The position numbers and the translations under genes were made by a program. DNA of 10,524 nt, taken from NCBI GenBank assembly GCA_946886325.1, contig CAMPIK010000043.1:1-10524 (forward strand), in the 5' to 3' direction. Position 1 is the first letter of the stretch. Every line of letters begins with the position of its first letter. A model generated the notes under the pieces. That model was not told the origin of the DNA, made no database searches, and saw nothing but the letters and a program-made list of their open reading frames with translations. This document shows, one piece after another, positions 1 to 10,428 of the stretch. The DNA comes from an uncultured Shinella sp. (GTDB lineage: Bacteria; Pseudomonadota; Alphaproteobacteria; Rhizobiales; Rhizobiaceae).

Positions 1-226
1 CCTTGTGCGGCCCCTCCGCCCGCGCGGCGTTGACGCCGGTGTGCTCCGAGAGATGCGCGATCTCCCAGCAGGCGAGCGTCAGCCCCGCGCCGTTGAACTC
101 GGCGAAACCATCGGCCCGCCGGTTGAGCTCGAAGCCGAGCTTGTCGATGTAGAAGTCGGCCGAGCGCTGGGCGTCCTTCACAAGGATGCAGATGTCGGTG
201 ATCGCATGGGTCTGGGCAAAGGGCAT
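1..226 (-). CDS. VOC (glyoxalase/dioxygenase-fold) family protein, 3' part missing
   Basis: The first 75 codons of a protein whose end lies beyond the left edge. The translation starts MPFAQTHAITDICILVKDAQ and continues with a stretch containing SADFYIDKLGFEL and a later ACWEIAHLSEHTGV. This is the usual opening beta-alpha-beta unit of the vicinal oxygen chelate superfamily: a strand with 'DICILVKD', a helix with 'ADFY', then 'LGFEL'. The ATG sits 2 bases after the thymidine phosphorylase stop, with GGGGA upstream as a ribosome binding site, so it is probably the last or a late gene of the same operon. VOC proteins include glyoxalases, ring-cleaving dioxygenases, epimerases and resistance proteins, and nothing visible here picks one. 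Only one of the expected two modules is present, so metal ligands cannot be assessed. Family call fairly sure; function unknown. Confidence 0.8.
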   Translation of the reverse strand, partial: MPFAQTHAITDICILVKDAQRSADFYIDKLGFELNRRADGFAEFNGAGLTLACWEIAHLSEHTGVNAARAEGPHK

Positions 227-228
227 GG

Positions 229-1578
229 TCAGGTTTCCCCGTCTGATGTTGAGAGGCGGCCGCCAACGACCGGCCGTGCCGGCGGAACAGCGGGGCCGAT
301 GGTGACAGCCGTGCGGATCGCCGCTGCCGCGGCGTCGAATTGCCCGGGATCGCGCAGGTGGAGGATGCAGAGCGGATCGCCGGCCTCGACGCGGTCGCCG
401 ACATGCACCATGCCTGACAGCCCGACCCCGTGGTCGATCGTGTCGGTCGGCAGCCTGCGACCGGCGCCGAGCCCGACCATGGCGAGGCCCACCGCATAGG
501 CATCGACCCGCTGGACGAAACCCTCCGCGTCAGCGGCAACGGGAAGCCGCAACGGTGCGATCTCCAGATGCGCGTCCGGCCTTTCGACGATATCGCCGGG
601 ACCGCCAAGCGCTGCCACCAGCCGGCCGAAGCGGGCAAGTGCCGAGCCATCGGCAAGCCGCTCCTCCAGCATCGCAACCGCCATGTCGAACGAGGCGACA
701 AGGCCCGCCATCAGGAGGATTTCGCTCGACAGGGCAAGGACCAGTTCGCGCATGCGGCGGTCCTGCCGCCGGCCCGCGAGGAAATCGATCGCTTCCAGCA
801 CCTGAAGCCGGCTGCCGATCGCGTCGCCCATCACCTCGTCCATGTCGACGACGAGCGTGACCATCGCAAGGCCGGCGCGGCCGGCGACATCGACAAGGCT
901 TTCCGCCAGTTCCCCGGCATCGGCCGCGGTCGGCATGAAGGCGCCGGAGCCGTGATTGACGCTCATCACCAGACCCGAAATGCCGGCGGCAAGCTTCTTC
1001 GACAGGATCGAGGAGGTGATGAGCGGGATGGACTCCACCGTCGCCGTGACGTCGCGGACATAGTAGATCGCCGCATCGGCAGGCGCGAGGCGGGGCGTCG
1101 GGCCGATGATCGCGGCACCTGCCGAGACCACCGCGCGGCGGAAGAGATCGGTCGGGGGCGCGATGTCGCAGCCGGGGATCGCCTCCATCAGGTCGACCTC
1201 CCCGCCGGTATGGCCAAGCCCGCGTGCCGAAATCATCGGCATGTGCACGCCGCAGGCCGCGACCAGCGGTGCCAGGATCAGGCTCACCTTCTCGTCGCCG
1301 GTTCCGCCGCTCGAATGCTTGTCGATGATGGTTGAGGGATCGATGCCGGTGCCGGCCCAGTCGATCACCTCGCCGGAATCGCGCATGGCAAGCGTCAGGG
1401 CGGCCGTTTCCTCCCGCGTCATGCCGTTGAGATAGGCGCTCATGGCAAAGGCGGCGATCTGCCCCTCGGAGACAGCGCCCTGGCCGATGCCCTCGACGAA
1501 GCGCCTGATGTCGCCGGGGTCGAGCGTGCCGCGGTCCCGCTTGGCGCGGATCACCTGCGCCGGCAGGAAGGTGGCCAC
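229..1578 (-). CDS. deoA: Thymidine/pyrimidine-nucleoside phosphorylase-like protein (DeoA family)
   Basis: Predicted to cleave a pyrimidine (deoxy)nucleoside with phosphate to give the free base and (deoxy)ribose-1-phosphate in the cytoplasm. The 449 residues are close to the usual DeoA length. The phosphate-binding loop KHSSGGTGD is at about residues 87-95, followed by MISARGLGHTGGE (about 115-127). The catalytic segment RDVTATVESIPLITSSILSKK holds Y172, R175, S190 and K194, which match Tyr168, Arg171, Ser186 and Lys190 of the E. coli enzyme by my alignment. Two family signatures differ: the usual 'VMDVKVGSGAF' reads VMSVNHGSGAF (204-214), and the usual 'GNALEV' reads GSRLQV (255-260), so substrate or ion preference may be altered. 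The start is GTG, 3 bases after the amidohydrolase stop, with AGGGGG about 8 bases upstream, which implies translation from the shared mRNA. The symbol marks the family; thymidine as substrate is not proven. Confidence 0.9.
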   Translation of the reverse strand: MATFLPAQVIRAKRDRGTLDPGDIRRFVEGIGQGAVSEGQIAAFAMSAYLNGMTREETAALTLAMRDSGEVIDWAGTGIDPSTIIDKHSSGGTGDEKVSLILAPLVAACGVHMPMISARGLGHTGGEVDLMEAIPGCDIAPPTDLFRRAVVSAGAAIIGPTPRLAPADAAIYYVRDVTATVESIPLITSSILSKKLAAGISGLVMSVNHGSGAFMPTAADAGELAESLVDVAGRAGLAMVTLVVDMDEVMGDAIGSRLQVLEAIDFLAGRRQDRRMRELVLALSSEILLMAGLVASFDMAVAMLEERLADGSALARFGRLVAALGGPGDIVERPDAHLEIAPLRLPVAADAEGFVQRVDAYAVGLAMVGLGAGRRLPTDTIDHGVGLSGMVHVGDRVEAGDPLCILHLRDPGQFDAAAAAIRTAVTIGPAVPPARPVVGGRLSTSDGET

Positions 1579-1581
1579 GCC

Positions 1582-3114
1582 TCAGCCCCCTGCCCGGTTG
1601 GCGCCGGGCCAGAGCGGCAGGTCGCCCTGGTAGCGGTTGATGCCGATGTCCTGGATCGTCGCGCGGCGGTACATTTCGCGCAAATACGGCTCGAAGCGGG
1701 CGTTCAGCCGTTCGAGTTCGGCGTGCTCGGCCATATAGGCCGGAAGCAGTTCGCTCAGTTCCGCGAAGACGGCGGCCTCGTCCACCGTCAGCAGCCGTCC
1801 CTCCTCGACCACGACCGCGCCGTTGACGACGACCATGCGGATGTTGCTGCCGTTCTCGCAATAGACGAGATGGTGGTCGAGCCGGTTCATCGGCAGGTAG
1901 TCGTAGCCCGTGAGGTCGAGCATGACGAGGTCGGCGCGCTTGCCGACCTCAAGCGATCCGGTCACACCGTCGAGCATGGCGGTGCGCGCGCCCTCGATCG
2001 TCGCGGAGCGCAGCACCTCGGCCGCCTTCACCCAGCGGTCCGTATCGGGCGCGGCGATGTCGTGCACGAGGCCGGCGAAGCGCATGACGTCGAAGATGCG
2101 CGCCGTGTCGTTGCTCGACAGCCCGTCCGTGCCGAGGCCGACATGCACGCCGGCATCAAGCAGCCGGCGGATGGGCGCGATGCCCGAGCCAAGCTTGAGG
2201 TTGGAGATGACGTTGTGGGCGATCGAGCAATCCGCCTCGCCCATCAGCGCCATGTCCTCGTCGGTCACCCAGATCGAATGCGCGATGGTGGTGTTGGCCG
2301 TCAGGATCTCGATGTCGCGCATGTAGCGGATGAGGCTCTTGCCGTAGAACTCCGGCCCGGTGACGGCCTGGGTCTTCGTTTCGAGCACATGGGTGTGGTA
2401 GGGCACGCCCTTTTCCTGCGCCAGCGCCACGCAGGCCTGCATCATCGGCACCGAGCAGCGCTGCGGCGCCGAGGCCGAGACCATGAAGCCGAGCCGCCCG
2501 GCGCGGCCGTGCTGGGTGTCGAAGATCTCGCGGCAATAGGCGATATAGGCATCCGGCGTGATATCGGGACCGCCGACCTCGGCCTGGAGATCGGCCGGGA
2601 TCAGCTCGCGCAGCCAGGGCATGGTGTCGAGCACATGCTTGTCGATGACGACATGGGAGACGTTGGCGCGGATGCCTGACGTCTCGTAGGCATCGAAGAC
2701 GCGGCCGAGGCGGGCGGGATCGTAGGCGGGAAAGTCGAACCAGTCGTCGACCATCGTGGTGACGCCGCCCTTCAGCGATTCCATCGCCGTCAGCAGGCTG
2801 CGCAGATAGAGCAGGCGCTCGCCGATCGGGTCCTTCATCAGGATCGGATAGGAATAGAGCATCCACACTTCCAGCGGCATGTTCTGGTAGCGGCCCTTGA
2901 AGAAGGTTTCCGAGGAATGCATGTGCGCGTTGACGAGGCCGGGCATGACGAGCTTGCCGGTGGCGTCGACGATGCGCGCGCCCTCGGGCGCCACGAGGTT
3001 CGGGCCGATGGCGGCGATGCGGTCGTTTTCGACCAGCAGGTCGCCGGCAAAGGGCGTCGTGCCGTTTGCCGCGTCCATGGAAAGGATGGTGGCGTTGCGG
3101 AAGAGGAGCGTCAT
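1582..3114 (-). CDS. Metal-dependent amidohydrolase, cytosine/guanine deaminase-like (ATZ/TRZ, COG0402 type)
   Basis: A 510-residue cytoplasmic hydrolase of the amidohydrolase superfamily, subtype of the ATZ/TRZ, guanine, 8-oxoguanine and isocytosine deaminases. The N-terminal beta-sandwich part is followed by PGLVNAHMH, giving metal ligands H64 and H66. Further expected ligands and catalytic residues are HVLE (H242, E245), AHSIW (H279) and GLGTDGLSSND (D330). The C-terminal 'GSLEVGKRADLVMLDL' is the typical return strand of these enzymes. All residues needed for hydrolysis are present, so it should be active, probably deaminating a nucleobase or related ring. It starts 16 bases after the permease stop with AAAGG as a ribosome binding site, and runs almost directly into the phosphorylase, so it is in the same operon as the transporter and likely acts on the imported compound or a derivative. 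The substrate cannot be read from sequence: cytosine, isocytosine, guanine or an oxidised purine are all possible. Confidence 0.9.
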   Translation of the reverse strand: MTLLFRNATILSMDAANGTTPFAGDLLVENDRIAAIGPNLVAPEGARIVDATGKLVMPGLVNAHMHSSETFFKGRYQNMPLEVWMLYSYPILMKDPIGERLLYLRSLLTAMESLKGGVTTMVDDWFDFPAYDPARLGRVFDAYETSGIRANVSHVVIDKHVLDTMPWLRELIPADLQAEVGGPDITPDAYIAYCREIFDTQHGRAGRLGFMVSASAPQRCSVPMMQACVALAQEKGVPYHTHVLETKTQAVTGPEFYGKSLIRYMRDIEILTANTTIAHSIWVTDEDMALMGEADCSIAHNVISNLKLGSGIAPIRRLLDAGVHVGLGTDGLSSNDTARIFDVMRFAGLVHDIAAPDTDRWVKAAEVLRSATIEGARTAMLDGVTGSLEVGKRADLVMLDLTGYDYLPMNRLDHHLVYCENGSNIRMVVVNGAVVVEEGRLLTVDEAAVFAELSELLPAYMAEHAELERLNARFEPYLREMYRRATIQDIGINRYQGDLPLWPGANRAGG

Positions 3115-3130: not shown

Positions 3131-3934
3131 TCACGCTTCCCCGTCCGGCTTCTTCAGGAGCAGCGGCAGCAGCACCAGTTCGAGGCAGACGAGGACGAGG
3201 CAGGAGATGGCGAAGACGACGGTGCCGATGGCGTTCAGCGACGGATCGATGGCGGCGACCAGCACGGAATAGATCGCGACCGGCAGGGTCGGCTGGAAGC
3301 CGGAGACGAACCAGGCGATGATGAATTCGTCGAAGGAGAAGGTGAAGGCGAGCAGCCAGGCGCCGAGGATGCCCGGCAGCGCGAAGGGCAGCACGACGCG
3401 CGTCACCGCCTGCCATTCCGTCGCGCCGAGGTCCCAGGCCGCCTCCTCCAGCGCCGCCGGCATCTGGGCGAGGCGAAGCTGGATGATGGCAAGCGCCGGC
3501 GCAGTGATCAGCACGACATGGGTGAGGAAAACCGCAAACAGCGTGCCCGACAGGTGGAGCCGCGCAAGCAGCCCGAGGAAGCCGACGCCGAGGATGAGCG
3601 GCGGAATGAGGATCGGCAGGGTGACCAGCGCCAGGAAGGCGGTCTTGCCGCGAAAGACGAAGCGGTTGAAGGCGTAGGCCGCGAGAAAGGCGATGACGGT
3701 CGCGACGGTCGCGGCCGCCGGCGAGACGATCATCGTGTTGCCCAGCGCCGCCGTCAGCGTGCCGTCGGCGACGAGCTTCTCGTACCACTCGGTGGTCCAG
3801 CCCTGCAGCGGAAAGCCCGGAAAGCGGTTCTTCTGGAAGGAGAAGAGCACCAGCACGACGAGTGGCAGGAACATGAAGGTGTAGGCGATGGCGAGCCAGA
3901 GCCGGCCGGCGAGGATCCAGGGATTGCCGCGCAT
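3131..3934 (-). CDS. ABC transporter permease, PotC/PotI type
   Basis: Second inner-membrane subunit of the downstream ABC importer, 267 residues, the normal size for PotC-type permeases. It is strongly hydrophobic, with about six membrane segments (roughly residues 12-33, 68-90, 100-124, 132-152, 187-210, 232-260). The cytoplasmic EAA loop that docks on the ATPase is EEAAWDLGATEWQAVTRVVL (about 163-182), with the conserved glycine. The early 'GWTTEWYEKL' segment is characteristic of the PotC branch. The ATG was chosen because it overlaps the previous permease's stop by one base (TGATG) and is preceded by GGAGGA; longer readings upstream lie inside the preceding gene. It pairs with the permease at 3934-4860 and the ATPase at 4857-5936. 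Family homologues carry polyamines and many other cations or small metabolites, so the family does not fix the substrate. Confidence 0.93.
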   Translation of the reverse strand: MRGNPWILAGRLWLAIAYTFMFLPLVVLVLFSFQKNRFPGFPLQGWTTEWYEKLVADGTLTAALGNTMIVSPAAATVATVIAFLAAYAFNRFVFRGKTAFLALVTLPILIPPLILGVGFLGLLARLHLSGTLFAVFLTHVVLITAPALAIIQLRLAQMPAALEEAAWDLGATEWQAVTRVVLPFALPGILGAWLLAFTFSFDEFIIAWFVSGFQPTLPVAIYSVLVAAIDPSLNAIGTVVFAISCLVLVCLELVLLPLLLKKPDGEA

Positions 3935-4860
3935 CAGCTCGTCCTCCGGCGCGCCCGGTCGGCCGCGATGAAACCCGCCGCCAGCGCCAGAACCATGACG
4001 ACGATGAGGATGGTCGCCAGCGCCGAGGTGCGCGGCAGGTTGGTGGAGGACGAGTAGTCGGACATGATCATGCTGGCATAGGTCGGCAGCTTGCCGAGGA
4101 TCGACTGGCCGGTGCCGCCGCCGAGCAGGTTGCCGGAGAGCGCATCGCCGAGGCTGACGATGACGGCGAAGCTGCCGGCGGTCAGCAGCCCGAAGCGCGA
4201 CAGCGGCAGGATGACCCTTTTGAAGGCCTGCCAGCGCGTGGCGCCGAGTTCCCGCGCCGCCTCGATCAGCACCCGGTCGATGGCGAGGATGCTGACATAG
4301 AGGATGACGATCAGGATCGGCGCCAGATAGTGGATGAGGCCGATGCGGGTGGCGATCTGGGTGTAGATGACGTCGATGCGCCAGTCGGCGAGCCCCACTT
4401 CCTTCAGCACGGAATTGATGACGCCGTTGCGCGACAGGATCGTCTGCCAGGAATAGAGGCGCAGCACGTAGCTCGACCAGAAGGGGGCGATGGCGAGCAG
4501 CAGCGCCAGCCGCTGCCAGCGCGCCGGCACGGCAAAGGCCAGCGCCAGCGCCACCATGTAGGAGAGGGCGACGGCGAAGACGGCCGTGGTGGTGGCGACC
4601 CAGAGCGACTGGAGGAGCGCCAGCCCGTAGCGGGAGCGCGAGAAGAAGCTCGCGAAAATCTCGCGGTAATTGTCGAAGGAGAAGCCGGGGATCGCCTGAT
4701 AGTTCTCGACGCGCCAGAAGCCGATCCACAGCAGGAAGATCAGCGGCAGCAGGAAGAGCACGCCGAGCCAGAGGGCGAGCGGCGCGAGGAAGAGCACCTT
4801 CAGCGGGCTGTCGTTCGGCGTCCGCATGCGTTTTGCGGGCGTGGCCGCGAGTTCGCTCAT
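3934..4860 (-). CDS. ABC transporter permease, PotB/PotH type
   Basis: First inner-membrane subunit of the downstream ABC importer, 308 residues. A charged cytoplasmic N-terminus is followed by a long hydrophobic segment (about 21-47). More membrane segments follow at about 85-112, 116-136, 177-195, 225-245 and 283-302. The ATPase-docking EAA loop is EAARELGATRWQAFKRVILP (about 200-219), a textbook match. The segment 'PFWSSYVLRLYSWQ' followed by 'GVIN' is the hallmark of PotB-type permeases. The start ATG overlaps the ATPase stop by four bases (ATGA), which indicates translational coupling; an upstream in-frame reading would run through the ATPase gene and is rejected. Together with the next gene it forms the heterodimeric membrane channel. 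Confidence 0.93.
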   Translation of the reverse strand: MSELAATPAKRMRTPNDSPLKVLFLAPLALWLGVLFLLPLIFLLWIGFWRVENYQAIPGFSFDNYREIFASFFSRSRYGLALLQSLWVATTTAVFAVALSYMVALALAFAVPARWQRLALLLAIAPFWSSYVLRLYSWQTILSRNGVINSVLKEVGLADWRIDVIYTQIATRIGLIHYLAPILIVILYVSILAIDRVLIEAARELGATRWQAFKRVILPLSRFGLLTAGSFAVIVSLGDALSGNLLGGGTGQSILGKLPTYASMIMSDYSSSTNLPRTSALATILIVVMVLALAAGFIAADRARRRTS

Positions 4861-5936
4861 GCCGGGCCTCCGATCAGCGAGGCGTCGGCGGGCGCGAACC
4901 AGGCGGAGATCGGCTGGTTGATCTCGATCGGCAGCGCCTGCGGCACGGTCATCTTGACCTCCGTGCCGTCGACGAGGTCCATCAGATAGATGTTGTGCGA
5001 GCCGGCGAATTCGCGGCCGCGCATGGTGGCGTCGATGCGGTTTTCGCCGGCAATACCTGTCGGCGCGCCGGCCAGCCGGTCGGCCTGCACCACGACGAAG
5101 ACGGGCGTTCCGACCGGGGGAGCGACATCCGTCGCGACCGTCACCTGGCCATGGCCGCAATGCACGATGACATGGCCCGCCTCGACCGACTGGATGCGGC
5201 CGGCAAAGAGATTGTTGCTGCCGACGAAGCGCGCGACGAATTCGGTCTTCGGCCGGGCATACATCTCCTCTGGTGTATCGACCTGCTCGATGCGGCCCTT
5301 GTTCATCACCACCACCCGGTCGGCCATCGAAAAGGCCTCGACCTGGTTGTGGGTGACATAGATGAAGGCCATGCCGAGCTGTTTCTGGATGCGGCGAAGC
5401 TCGCCCTGCATGCGGATGCGCAGGTGGGCATCGAGCGCCGACAAGGGTTCGTCGAGGAGCAGGATATCCGGCTCGGTGACGAGCGCGCGGGCGAGCGCCA
5501 CGCGCTGCTTCTGCCCGCCCGAAAGCTGGGTGATCCGGCGGCCGAGGAAATCGGTGAGGCCGACCAGTTCGGCCATGGCCCTCACCTTGCCGGCGACAAC
5601 AGCCTTGTCATGGGCCTTCAGCGTCAGGCCGAAGGCGATGTTGCCGGCGACGTCGAGATGGGGAAAGAGCGCGTAGTTCTGCCAGACGAGCCGGGTCGAG
5701 CGCAGGTTCACCGGCACGTCGGAAACGTCCCTGCCGCGCACATGGAGCTGGCCGGAGGTGGCGGTCTCAAGGCCGGCGAGGATGCGCAGAAGCGTGGTCT
5801 TGCCGCAGCCCGATGGTCCCATGATGGCGACGAACTCGCCGCGGCCGACCTTGAGATTGACCGCGTCGACGGCGGTGAAATCGTTGAAGCGCTTGGTGAT
5901 CGACAGGAGTTCGAGATCGGGTGCGGCCAATGTCAT
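4857..5936 (-). CDS. ABC transporter ATP-binding protein, PotA/PotG type (downstream module)
   Basis: The cytoplasmic ATPase that powers the downstream importer, 359 residues. Walker A is GPSGCGKTT (about 40-48), the Q-loop is WQNYALFPH (Q86), the signature is LSGGQ (138-142), Walker B is ILLLDEP (D162, E163), the D-loop is SALD, and the switch histidine is H196 in YVTHNQ. The C-terminal third fits the TOBE-type regulatory domain common in PotA, MalK and UgpC proteins. I chose the ATG at 5936 (MTLAAPD) with GGAAGA upstream; an in-frame ATG 36 bases earlier sits at the edge of the repeat element and has no supporting ribosome site. The gene follows the binding-protein gene in the common order of binding protein, ATPase, permease, permease, with the RIME-like repeat between them. 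Confidence 0.94.
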   Translation of the reverse strand: MTLAAPDLELLSITKRFNDFTAVDAVNLKVGRGEFVAIMGPSGCGKTTLLRILAGLETATSGQLHVRGRDVSDVPVNLRSTRLVWQNYALFPHLDVAGNIAFGLTLKAHDKAVVAGKVRAMAELVGLTDFLGRRITQLSGGQKQRVALARALVTEPDILLLDEPLSALDAHLRIRMQGELRRIQKQLGMAFIYVTHNQVEAFSMADRVVVMNKGRIEQVDTPEEMYARPKTEFVARFVGSNNLFAGRIQSVEAGHVIVHCGHGQVTVATDVAPPVGTPVFVVVQADRLAGAPTGIAGENRIDATMRGREFAGSHNIYLMDLVDGTEVKMTVPQALPIEINQPISAWFAPADASLIGGPA

Positions 5937-5961
5937 GGTGTCTTCCGGTTGGGTATGAAGG

Positions 5962-6087
5962 CCCCTCCCCATCCCCTCCCCACAAGGGGGAGGGGCTTAA
6001 CCGGCCGCACCGCTTGTACCTCATGGCAAGGCAGCGCCACGAGTCTTCTCCCCCTTGTGGGGGAGATGGCCGGCAGGCCAGAGGGGG
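5962..6087. repeat. RIME-like palindromic intergenic repeat, copy A
   Basis: A GC-rich element of about 126 bases between the binding-protein and ATPase genes. One end has a 9-bp stem of CCCCTCCCC (5973-5981) with GGGGAGGGG (5987-5995), closed by a 5-base loop. The other end has an 8-bp stem of TCTCCCCC (6047-6054) with GGGGGAGA (6059-6066) and loop TTGT, followed by the small dyad TGGCCGGCAGGCCA and a G-run. The same ends occur in inverted orientation at 10298-10428. From memory, 'ctctggcctgccggccatctccccc' type sequence matches the rhizobial RIME family; I could not search to confirm this. Transcribed, the stems could stabilise or attenuate the mRNA between the two genes. Confidence 0.85.
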
Positions 6088-6145: not shown

Positions 6146-7324
6146 TCAGGCCGTCTTGAACTCGTTGAAGATGTCGATCCAGGCCTGTTCCGGCTGGTTG
6201 CCCGGCAGGCCGCGCGGCATGGAGCGGTCGATCAGCGTCTCGACGAGCATCTGGCCGGGGTTTTCCGGATCCGGCACGTAGGAGAGCAGCGCCTTCTGGT
6301 CGTCGTCCCAGTGGTCGACGATCTTCATGTTCGGCCCGCGCGCCTTGAAGGCCTTGGTATAGACGAGCTTCGACTGCACCTTGGGCGAGGTCATGTACTT
6401 GACCCACTCCATGGCGAGATCCTTGTTCTTCGATGCGGAACAGACGCAGGCCACTTCCTGCCAGCGGATGCCGCCCTGCTTCGGGATCGTCGAGGAGAAG
6501 TTGTCGTAGCCGGCAAGCTTCAGGTCGATGTCGAGGTCGCCGGTCGGCGACGCCACGATGTCGCCGGCAAGCATCGCCTGGGCGATCGGCTGGTTGGACG
6601 AACCGAACATGCCGACCTGCGGGCGAAGCTTGATCAGGAAGTCCTTGACCTGGGCAAGCTGCGCGTCGTCGATCATGTAGGGCGTCTGGTTGCCGGGATT
6701 GATCGCGAGGCTGGCATTGCCGAGGTTCGGCAGGTACCAGTCGAAGATGCCGATCTTGCCCTCGTATTTCGGGTTGAGCAGCGAGGCCCAGTCGGTCGCC
6801 TCCTCCGCCGACATCTCGTCGGTGTTGTAGGAGATGCCGTAGAAGGAAAAGCGCGTCGGGATGCCGTAGACCGTGCCGTCCGTCTCGCCCTTGGTCGGCG
6901 CGAAGTCGCGGAACTTCGGGTGGTAGTTGGCAAGCTCGTCGAAGCCCTCGGTCTTGTAAGCCTCGATGGCGCTCTGGGCCTTCAGCTTCTGGACGTATTC
7001 GGCATCCGAGATGATGGCGTCGAAGGTGCCGGGCGGCGTCTGGGCGAAGAACTGCAGCATCTGCTCGCCGCCGATATAGATCTTGAACTCCACCTTGGTC
7101 TTGTGGAGGTCCTCGAACTCGGCGATGACGTCGCGTTCCTCGTAGCCCGGCCAGCACAGAACGCGCAGCGGTTCGGCAGCGCTTGCCTGGCGCGAGAAGA
7201 TGGTGAAGTTGCCGAAGGCGGCGCCGGCCGTCACGGCGGCTGCTCCGCCGAGTAGCTTGCGCCGGCTCACCTCCGGCAGGCTCGAAACCGTGTTCTGTCC
7301 GTCTGCCTGTTTTTCGGTCGTCAT
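6146..7324 (-). CDS. Periplasmic substrate-binding protein of an ABC importer, PotD/PotF type, Tat-exported
   Basis: A 392-residue exported protein that should capture the substrate in the periplasm and hand it to the membrane complex. The N-terminus has a twin-arginine signal, SRRKLLGG (about 20-27), then a hydrophobic alanine-rich stretch and a likely cleavage site in RQASAAEP (about residue 49 or 50). The mature start, EPLRVLCWPGYEE, is the usual PotD-family first strand; further family features are FDAIISDAEYVQKL and VYGIPTRFSFYGISYNTDEM. The ATG is preceded by AGGGGA. It lies 193 bases beyond the upstream ATPase gene, with the palindromic operator candidate in between, so it probably heads its own transcription unit that continues into the downstream ABC genes. 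By homology it would be called spermidine/putrescine-binding, but this family also binds unrelated compounds; a pyrimidine-type ligand is my inference from context. Confidence 0.92.
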   Translation of the reverse strand: MTTEKQADGQNTVSSLPEVSRRKLLGGAAAVTAGAAFGNFTIFSRQASAAEPLRVLCWPGYEERDVIAEFEDLHKTKVEFKIYIGGEQMLQFFAQTPPGTFDAIISDAEYVQKLKAQSAIEAYKTEGFDELANYHPKFRDFAPTKGETDGTVYGIPTRFSFYGISYNTDEMSAEEATDWASLLNPKYEGKIGIFDWYLPNLGNASLAINPGNQTPYMIDDAQLAQVKDFLIKLRPQVGMFGSSNQPIAQAMLAGDIVASPTGDLDIDLKLAGYDNFSSTIPKQGGIRWQEVACVCSASKNKDLAMEWVKYMTSPKVQSKLVYTKAFKARGPNMKIVDHWDDDQKALLSYVPDPENPGQMLVETLIDRSMPRGLPGNQPEQAWIDIFNEFKTA

Positions 7325-7451
7325 GTCGTTCCCCTGGTGGCTTGGTGACCTTACGGGATAGAAGGCAGCAAGTTCCGTGCCAGCTGTCTACGACATTGAA
7401 ACCATTGCGAAACGGCCGGGATCGATTGCGTTGATTGTTTCGTGGGCGATC

Positions 7452-7477
7452 AAAATCTGACCAAATGGTCAGATTTT
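7452..7477. promoter_or_regulatory. 26-bp palindrome, candidate RutR-type (TetR family) operator
   Basis: Two 12-base arms, perfectly complementary, separated by AA. The core is TGACCA-AA-TGGTCA (7458-7471), extended by CT/AG and an A/T flank on each side. The E. coli RutR consensus is TTGACCANNTGGTCAA; the inner 14 positions match and only the outermost pair differs. It lies about 130 bases upstream of the binding-protein start and about 40 bases after the ATPase stop. RutR-type repressors are released by uracil or thymine. Alternative reading: an intrinsic terminator of the upstream operon, since the stem is followed by four T in the transcribed direction, although it is AT-rich and the T-run is short. 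No regulator gene is in the window, and I could not place a convincing -35/-10 pair in the 193-base gap. Confidence 0.6.
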
Positions 7478-7517: not shown

Positions 7518-8594
7518 TCACGCGAAGGCGTGCGCGGCGTCCGTCTCGAAGCTGAGCCAGGCCGTGTCGCCCCGTCCCATGCCGGCGATCGCCTCGTGGC
7601 CGAAGGGCAGGCGGACGGAAAGCGTGTCGCCGGTCGCCGTCAGGGTCCGGACCTCGACCGTGTTGCCGAGAAAGGTGATGTCGTCGACGGTGACGGCAAG
7701 GCCCGCTTCCCGCGCCGCCCGCGACAGCGACAGCCGTTCCGGGCGCAGCAGCAGTGCAGCCTTTCCTTCTGTCCCGCGCGCCCCATGCAGCGGAACGCCG
7801 TCGACGATCTCGCCGCCGGGCAGCCGCAGCCGGGTCCTGTCGCCGTTCATCGCAAGGATCTCGGCATCGAGGAAATTGCTGTCGCCGATGAAGCCGGCGA
7901 CGAAGCGCGTGGCGGGCTTGGCGTAGAGTTCCGGCCCGGTCCCGACCTGGTCGATCTCGCCCTGGCTGAAGACGGCAATGCGATCGGAGAGCCTGAGCGC
8001 CTCTTCCTGGTCATGGGTGACATAGAGGATCGTGACGCCGGTTTCCTGGTGGATGCGGCGGATCTCGAACTGGATTTCCTCGCGCAGCTTCTTGTCGAGC
8101 GCAGACAGCGGCTCGTCCATCAGAAGCACCGGCGGCTCGTAGACGAGCGCGCGGGCAAGCGCCACCCGCTGCTGCTGACCGCCCGACATCATCGCCGGCA
8201 TGCGATCCTCGAAGCCCTCAAGCCGGACGAGTTTCAGCGCGGACTTCACGCGCTCGGCGATCTCGGCCTGCGGCAGGCGGCGGATGCGCAGCGGAAAGGC
8301 GACGTTCTCGCCGACGGAGAGATGCGGGAAGAGGGTATAGCGCTGGAAGACCATGCCGATCTTGCGCTTGTGCGACGGCGTCGCCAGCAAGCTCTTGCCC
8401 TTCAGCAGGATGTCGCCCTCGGTCGGGTCCTGGAAGCCGGCGAGGATATAGAGCGTCGTCGACTTGCCGGAGCCTGATGGCCCGAGGAAGGTGACGAACT
8501 CGCCTTCGGCGACGTCGAGATTGACGTTCTTGACCGCCGTCACCGGCCCGTAGACCTTGCGGATGCCGCGGATGCTGAGGAAGGGTTCGGTCAT
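7518..8594 (-). CDS. ABC transporter ATP-binding protein, PotA type (upstream module)
   Basis: The ATPase of the upstream ABC module, 358 residues. Walker A is GPSGSGKST (about 38-46), the Q-loop is FQRYTLFPH (Q84), the signature is MSGGQ (136-140) instead of the usual LSGGQ, Walker B is VLLMDEP (D160, E161), the D-loop is SALD, and the switch histidine is H194 in YVTHDQ. The C-terminal part resembles a TOBE domain (about 280-350, including LLLRPERLSL). The start ATG overlaps the permease stop by four bases (ATGA), so translation is coupled. It is clearly a separate lineage from the ATPase at 4857-5936 (different Q-loop, linker and C-terminus), which argues for two independently acquired transporters rather than a recent tandem duplication. 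Confidence 0.94.
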   Translation of the reverse strand: MTEPFLSIRGIRKVYGPVTAVKNVNLDVAEGEFVTFLGPSGSGKSTTLYILAGFQDPTEGDILLKGKSLLATPSHKRKIGMVFQRYTLFPHLSVGENVAFPLRIRRLPQAEIAERVKSALKLVRLEGFEDRMPAMMSGGQQQRVALARALVYEPPVLLMDEPLSALDKKLREEIQFEIRRIHQETGVTILYVTHDQEEALRLSDRIAVFSQGEIDQVGTGPELYAKPATRFVAGFIGDSNFLDAEILAMNGDRTRLRLPGGEIVDGVPLHGARGTEGKAALLLRPERLSLSRAAREAGLAVTVDDITFLGNTVEVRTLTATGDTLSVRLPFGHEAIAGMGRGDTAWLSFETDAAHAFA

Positions 8595-10297: not shown

Positions 10298-10428
10298 CCC
10301 CCTCTGGCCTGCCGGCCATCTCCCCCACAAGGGGGGAGAAGACTCGCGGCACCATCGTGCCCCAATCGAGGCACCGGGAGCGAGGCGGGTTAAGCCCCTC
10401 CCCCTTGTGGGGAGGGGTTGGGGAGGGG
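10298..10428. repeat. RIME-like palindromic intergenic repeat, copy B (inverted relative to copy A)
   Basis: About 131 bases between the partial gene at the right edge and the PotB-type permease. It carries the same two ends as the repeat at 5962-6087 but on the opposite strand: an 8-bp stem TCTCCCCC (10319-10326) with GGGGGAGA (10332-10339), and a 9-bp stem CCCCTCCCC (10395-10403) with GGGGAGGGG (10409-10417). The outer segments are nearly identical between copies; the middle 40-50 bases differ. That is the mosaic pattern expected of RIME elements. It sits just after a stop codon in transcript order and may act as the 3' end structure of the upstream mRNA. Confidence 0.85.

Follow-up and report, generated by a model that had tools for sequence, protein, structure and literature searches.

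A conserved RutR-type palindrome ahead of a sigma-54 promoter at a Rhizobiales transporter operon, probably the operator of a RutR paralogue

Introduction

In Escherichia coli, the rutA promoter combines a RutR-type operator with a sigma-54 promoter downstream of it at pyrimidine/nitrogen genes, and the gene for the regulator is adjacent (PMC4591121, PMC10891134). The locus described here resembles it on both counts. The window, that is, the whole 10,524-nucleotide stretch of DNA from an uncultured Shinella sp. that was analysed, carries a RutR-type operator sequence upstream of a sigma-54 promoter, and the adjacent regulator gene recurs in Rhizobiales loci. The two systems differ in what the site precedes, an oxygenase pathway in E. 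coli and a PotD-type ABC transporter operon in the window, and in geometry: the gap between operator and promoter is 65 bp at rutA, compared with 73–76 bp in the Rhizobiales loci. For this comparison, the RutR box between rutA and rutR of E. coli K-12 was read by eye, as was the NtrC-like sequence next to it, which has no counterpart found in the Rhizobiales loci; the rutA sigma-54 element is the one listed in PMC4591121. RutR regulons across Proteobacteria taxa have been reconstructed in RegPrecise, with taxon-specific substitutions in the motif, and the available text of that account describes neither a RutR paralogue nor a sigma-54 layout (PMC5343134). A search of the open-licence literature returned no account of the paralogue or of the binding-protein operon among the matches listed. 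New here are the sigma-54 promoter at a fixed gap from the operator, a RutR paralogue (RutR2) with a near-copy of the operator at codA, and the similar layout in E. coli rutA and in one distant genome, G647.

A conserved palindrome before a transporter operon

An earlier note on this DNA had described a 26-bp palindrome between two ABC modules. Its position (7452..7477, no strand assigned) and its sequence proved exact: an inverted-repeat scan gives arms at 7452–7463 and 7466–7477, 12 nt each and 100% complementary, with a 2-nt spacer. Of the 29 pairs in the window 25 were listed, and none of these is a longer perfect repeat. The pattern TGACCANNTGGTCA occurs exactly once in the window; with up to two mismatches allowed, at least one match appeared in 41 of 200 shuffles of the window (mean 0.21), and under so lax a test the window by itself is not overwhelming evidence against chance. 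The core CTGACCAAATGGTCAG, at 7457..7472 as read on the plus strand (again without strand assignment), is predicted to be a RutR2-type TetR site. It is a palindrome like TTGACCANNTGGTCAA, which we take to be the RutR operator consensus: the inner 14 positions are exact, with outer bases T or C at the left end and G at the right. Between 7200 and 7700, the window has no match to Rfam at gathering score. Further inverted repeats (CCCCTCCCC/GGGGAGGGG) lie at 5961–5996, close to where the second ATPase gene starts, and at 10395–10428, near the right window edge.

Stronger evidence comes from relatives. Searching genome contigs with the binding protein yielded 25 loci, of which 20 (all except L020–L024) had their upstream regions examined. 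Among the 11 close Rhizobiales loci, an exact core precedes the binding-protein gene in ten (L001–L006, L008–L010 and L015), L007 being the one without it, and a further exact core stands before the binding-protein gene of R. etli 8C-3 in a plasmid collection. Counting the window and R. etli 8C-3, TGACCA-NN-TGGTCA is exact in 12 of 13 close loci, which bears out the conservation in orthologous gaps that the earlier note had proposed to check. Because these loci were fetched by protein and not by pattern, their exact cores argue against chance, and on this comparison the palindrome is a real and strongly conserved DNA site before a transporter operon.

Across the 12 core-bearing loci, the distance from core to ATG is 141–147 bp. 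The core is exact in these loci by selection, and identity figures concern the flanks: mean pairwise identity outside the core is 0.53–0.67 in the adjoining 8 bp and 0.26–0.36 beyond, where the flanks of the predicted operator are near random. The outer arms are extended in the window and in L002 only (6 and 8 outer dyad pairs, respectively, in the two), with no pairs in the other ten loci; the size of 26 bp given in the earlier note is thus true of the window and does not carry over to 10 of the 12 loci.

Farther out, the site changes or disappears. Upstream of the binding-protein gene, L011 has TGACCCGATGGTCA and L012–L014 have TTGACTRAATCGTCAA at 178 bp, whereas no convincing site was seen at L016–L019 and L025 (L017–L019 by one upstream-region comparison). 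In a broad family sample, 2 of 297 genomes, G002 and G220, had the binding protein at E ≤ 1e-100, and TGACC....GGTCA was not found at the G220 locus (L063). The plasmid collection held one close orthologue, that of R. etli 8C-3, and one at <60% identity.

Genes of the binding-protein operon and the terminator question

Read leftwards, the gene order is the ABC operon ending in an ATPase gene, the palindrome, and then, all on the minus strand, the genes of the operon predicted to be controlled. The first encodes an extracellular solute-binding protein (6146..7324; PotD-like, SBP_bac_8), followed by an ABC ATPase (4857..5972; PotA/PhnT2-like), ABC permease 1 (3934..4860; a corrected gene call that overlaps the end of the ATPase gene and the start of permease 2), ABC permease 2 (3131..3934; PotC-like), an amidohydrolase of the ATZ/TRZ-type deaminase/chlorohydrolase kind (1582..3114) and a thymidine/pyrimidine-nucleoside phosphorylase (229..1578). 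A 532-aa open reading frame at 3131–4729, considered as a permease fusion, was rejected; its N-terminal half is in the wrong frame. The phosphorylase scores 510.5 bits against NF004490 (cut-off 269) and 538 bits against TIGR02643, below the 570.7 of that model. For the 'deaminase', the closest PDB relatives are atrazine chlorohydrolase and related enzymes, not a pyrimidine deaminase. The earlier note had the operon end in these two genes; instead, the 5' part of a VOC-like gene follows (1..226), running from 226 off the window edge, and the family-model matches of its orthologue are weak. Three related binding-protein loci in cyanobacteria (L018, L019 and L021) have two amidohydrolase genes upstream, which suggests an old link between the binding-protein transporter and amidohydrolases.

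To the right of the palindrome, the ATPase gene at 7518..8594 (minus strand) is the last of a separate upstream ABC operon and is not part of the binding-protein operon. The palindrome lies ~40 bp past its stop codon, has T-rich edges in the window and folds stably as an RNA hairpin (41-nt pieces, z −5.5 and −4.6), as an intrinsic terminator of the upstream operon, possibly a bidirectional one, would. That this is what the palindrome is for seems to us very improbable: the outer arms of the stem are those missing from most loci, several loci have few T on one side, the upstream genes differ among loci (in L004, the neighbour is on the opposite strand), and the palindrome was not listed by a terminator scan. 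The permease–permease–ATPase module upstream in the window was adjacent in none of the 11 close loci; L010 has a 45%-identical ATPase, 4.7 kb upstream. From 150 plasmid records with DNA similar to the module, five were fetched, and none of the five had TGACC....GGTCA in 6 kb or an inverted repeat with arms of at least 8 within ~300 nt after the ATPase gene. Since the core is absent after the upstream ATPase in all five relatives, termination is not the conserved role of the palindrome, and we rejected it as such, the stem and T-tract not being conserved with the upstream gene; the palindrome may nevertheless take part in ending transcripts in this one genome. The predicted operator is kept before the binding-protein gene and missing after the upstream module's ATPase, and we assign it, as the earlier note did, to the binding-protein operon and not to the upstream ABC operon.

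A sigma-54 promoter at a fixed distance

Sigma-54 (RpoN) promoters have the consensus TGGCAC-N5-TTGC[A/T]. The window contains such a −24/−12 element, TGGCACGGAACTTGCT, at 7367..7382 on the minus strand; it agrees with the consensus at 12 of 12 positions and lies 75 bp from the operator core and 58 bp before the ATG of the binding-protein gene. TGGCA-N6-TTGC is found in all 12 core-bearing loci, in each at the 73–76-bp gap from the operator, and the spacer between the two elements is poorly conserved (mean identity 0.52). At L007, which is without the palindrome, the sigma-54 element was not found either. This promoter, which the earlier note did not mention, changes the mechanism.

Among 397 genomes of the order, the exact core combined with a sigma-54 element occurred twice at gaps of 58–88 bp and not at all at gaps of 89–119 or 27–57 bp; the reversed-pattern control gave no match among the matches listed. 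The two genomes are G002, with the binding-protein operon, and G647, in which the gap is 63 bp and the pair lies upstream of an ABC ATPase gene, beside genes for a RutR-like TetR protein and PreA, a dihydropyrimidine dehydrogenase subunit that scores over its cut-off. The gap in E. coli rutA and G647 differs from that in the Rhizobiales loci by ~10 bp, or one turn of DNA; three lineages are few, and this is a lead and not a law.

The position of the palindrome also suits the binding of an activator, which counts against our preferred reading of it as a repressor site. A sigma-54 enhancer-binding protein (XylR/DmpR- or NtrC-like) could then use the palindrome as its upstream activator sequence: the palindrome is centred at about −108 of the promoter at a fixed spacing, and in the 200 bp before the ATG no other conserved element was seen upstream of the promoter. 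We nonetheless hold an enhancer site to be unlikely. A near-copy of the palindrome recurs in the tetR2–codA gap (see below), where a sigma-54-like match (10/12) is intergenic in only one of eight loci, the other weak matches being coding; the half-sites of the palindrome differ from the NtrC consensus in spacing and in letters; and at L011–L014 a related palindrome stands upstream of the gene and a sigma-54 element was not found. Scanning for NtrC-like sequences yielded no convincing site: best matches were no better than those of shuffles in 10 of 11 loci (R. etli lay outside the scan), and L009 had a match of 10/12 at 40 bp from the ATG that was equalled in 3 of 200 shuffles. No IHF site was found between operator and promoter either; the best match was equalled in at least 120 of 300 plain letter shuffles in 10 of 11 loci, and in 25 of 300 at L005.

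Two RutR-type regulators and related operators

The check for a RutR homologue that the earlier note had proposed was applied to relatives of the host: PF08362, the RutR-type C-terminal domain, is present in all 11 related genomes searched (the genome of L011 was not among them). Canonical RutR is intact in 10 of these, the G011 copy being in two pieces, and a second RutR-family TetR protein, RutR2, is encoded in 10, with none in G007. At its binding-protein locus (L007), G007 also lacks the site, the sigma-54 element, and the deaminase and phosphorylase genes in the operon. In eight genomes, the far end of the locus holds the RutR2 gene (tetR2) and, divergent from it, a gene for cytosine deaminase; the enzyme of L005 scored 766 bits against PRK07572 (cut-off 438). 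The two genes are neighbours at that end in R. etli as well, where RutR2 is encoded ~1.5 kb beyond the VOC-like gene. In G001 and G003, RutR2 is encoded elsewhere in the genome and not at the binding-protein locus. The RutR2-type TetR gene of these two genomes is on another contig, beside genes that by eye are msrA-like and fdhD-like (G001, L033/L061; G003, L034/L060). At L012, two RutR-like TetR genes share one locus with the binding-protein operon. We infer from these relatives that the host of the window also has RutR2, whose gene would lie outside the window.

RutR2 belongs to the PF08362 TetR family (L055: PF08362, 139.5 bits, cut-off 25; TetR_N, 54.1 bits) and falls below both RutR equivalog cut-offs (TIGR03613, 172.4 against 368; NF011584, 154.9 against 230). 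A canonical Rhizobiales RutR (L049) misses them too, with 237.5 and 223, so these scores alone do not separate RutR2 from RutR. A tree does, with one strong split (100/100) that places E. coli RutR and 10 canonical rows opposite 14 RutR2-type rows; it is midpoint-rooted, and the program flags long branches. The best PDB match of RutR2 is E. coli RutR (3loc, 4jyk and 6z1b; E 7.7e-42), the next non-RutR chain following at 1.1e-10. The uracil pocket of RutR comprises W77, Y97, W167, Q171 and Q179' (PMC10891134). RutR2 resembles E. coli RutR in having PF08362 and in keeping W77, Y97, W167 and Q171, the latter four in all 10 RutR2 proteins of the related genomes, and departs from it in the tree, in its recognition helix (PKANIYYY for SKTNLLYY) and in the replacement of Q179 by Leu, also in 10 of 10. 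With this replacement, the ligand of RutR2 may not be uracil.

Between tetR2 and codA, TTGACG[A/G]NNTGGTCAG is found in 9 of 9 gaps; it departs from the core at a single position of the left half, or at two in L053, and is thus a near-copy. In G001 and G003, the exact core lies at the promoter of the genome's own RutR2-type gene, and the best further matches at their binding-protein loci score 5.2 and 10.4, weak values beside a shuffled maximum of 10.3. Canonical rutR genes have a different, slightly asymmetric upstream site, TTGACCGRYTGGTAAA, in 10 of 10 cases (L042–L051), and the longer TTTGACCGAYTGGTAAA in 7 of 10; the G001 and G003 proteins in this canonical set are identical. Genome-wide, the exact core occurs at 17 places in 10 of 11 genomes, against 3 for the reversed control; 10 of the places belong to the binding protein and 2 to RutR2 genes, and 5 are unexplained. 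The pattern TTGACSRNNTGGTCAG has 23 matches in 12 genomes or records, of which the binding-protein operon accounts for 10, tetR2–codA for 9 and other places for 4 (reversed control, 3); the binding-protein site of G002, which begins with C, is outside it.

Direct binding of the palindrome by canonical RutR, the uracil sensor, was the proposal of the earlier note. It accords with the match of the core to the RutR consensus, with an intact canonical copy in nearly all of the genomes, with position-matrix scores that overlap between RutR2–codA sites (11.8–21.1) and canonical rutR sites (10.4–15.0), and with G647, where a canonical-looking RutR (SKPNLLYYF) is encoded beside TGACCAGATGGTCA. Yet we regard it as improbable: canonical rutR has its own site, whose right half differs, tetR2–codA is where the palindrome's near-copy sits, and G007, which keeps canonical RutR and is without RutR2, has no exact core anywhere. 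Judged from these sequences, the binder is most likely a relative of RutR and probably not RutR itself. Of the RutR control put forward in the earlier note, the RutR-type operator, the RutR-family regulators, and the cytosine deaminase and thymidine phosphorylase genes of related loci stand; the identity of the controller shifts to RutR2 as the likely binder, a diverged paralogue with its own clade, an altered recognition helix and Leu for Q179.

A proposed two-key promoter

Taken together, we consider it likely that the palindrome is the operator of a RutR2-type repressor at a nitrogen-controlled nucleobase/nucleoside uptake operon, released by a pyrimidine-like ligand. To the conservation, co-occurrence, related predicted operators at both places, fixed spacing and sigma-54 consensus given by the comparison, we add binding, repression, the ligand and the identity of the activator as what we infer. 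A RutR2 dimer at about −108 of the sigma-54 promoter would hinder an enhancer-binding activator or its DNA loop and so keep the uptake operon off, with the binding protein, ATPase, two permeases, deaminase, thymidine phosphorylase and VOC-like protein all repressed. With a pyrimidine-like ligand in its pocket, RutR2 would leave the DNA; once it is gone, sigma-54 RNA polymerase and the activator could transcribe the operon when nitrogen is short. The promoter would thus need two keys, as in the E. coli rut operon: sigma-54 for nitrogen need and RutR2 release for the presence of substrate. RutR2 may also control its own gene and codA via the near-copy operator.

Family models would give this ABC operon a polyamine-type label; the control elements and neighbouring genes offer a lead on its function, namely nucleobases or nucleosides used as a nitrogen source. 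It also singles out a RutR paralogue with a probable operator, and the fixed geometry between operator and sigma-54 promoter offers a handle on how a TetR repressor shuts an enhancer-driven promoter. A broader idea, speculative and in our view rather less likely than not to hold in full, is that RutR-family repressors occupy a conserved, helix-phased 'anti-enhancer' seat on sigma-54 promoters, 63–65 bp (E. coli rutA and G647) or 73–76 bp (Rhizobiales) upstream of −24. From there, as ligand-sensing TetR proteins, they might gate the loop between activator and polymerase instead of blocking polymerase itself, so that nitrogen and nucleobase signals would meet at one promoter, with RutR2 as a distinct regulator with a non-uracil ligand.

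Sites in further relatives

Across 297 relatives, TTGACCANNTGGTCAG had 20 matches in 18 genomes, compared with 2 for the reversed pattern. Three of the matches (L065, L075 and L076) are inside open reading frames with similar surrounding sequence, which means that there are fewer operators than the excess over the control suggests. Of the 20 matches, seven fall outside all open reading frames of at least 120 aa, and three have another RutR-family TetR gene within 1.5 kb; the genes adjoining these three encode an NMT1-type binding protein, a PnrA-like (nucleoside-type) binding protein or a class-III aminotransferase. By eye, the TTGACCANNTGGTCAG sites of L079, L080 and L084 precede TRAP-type transporter-like genes.
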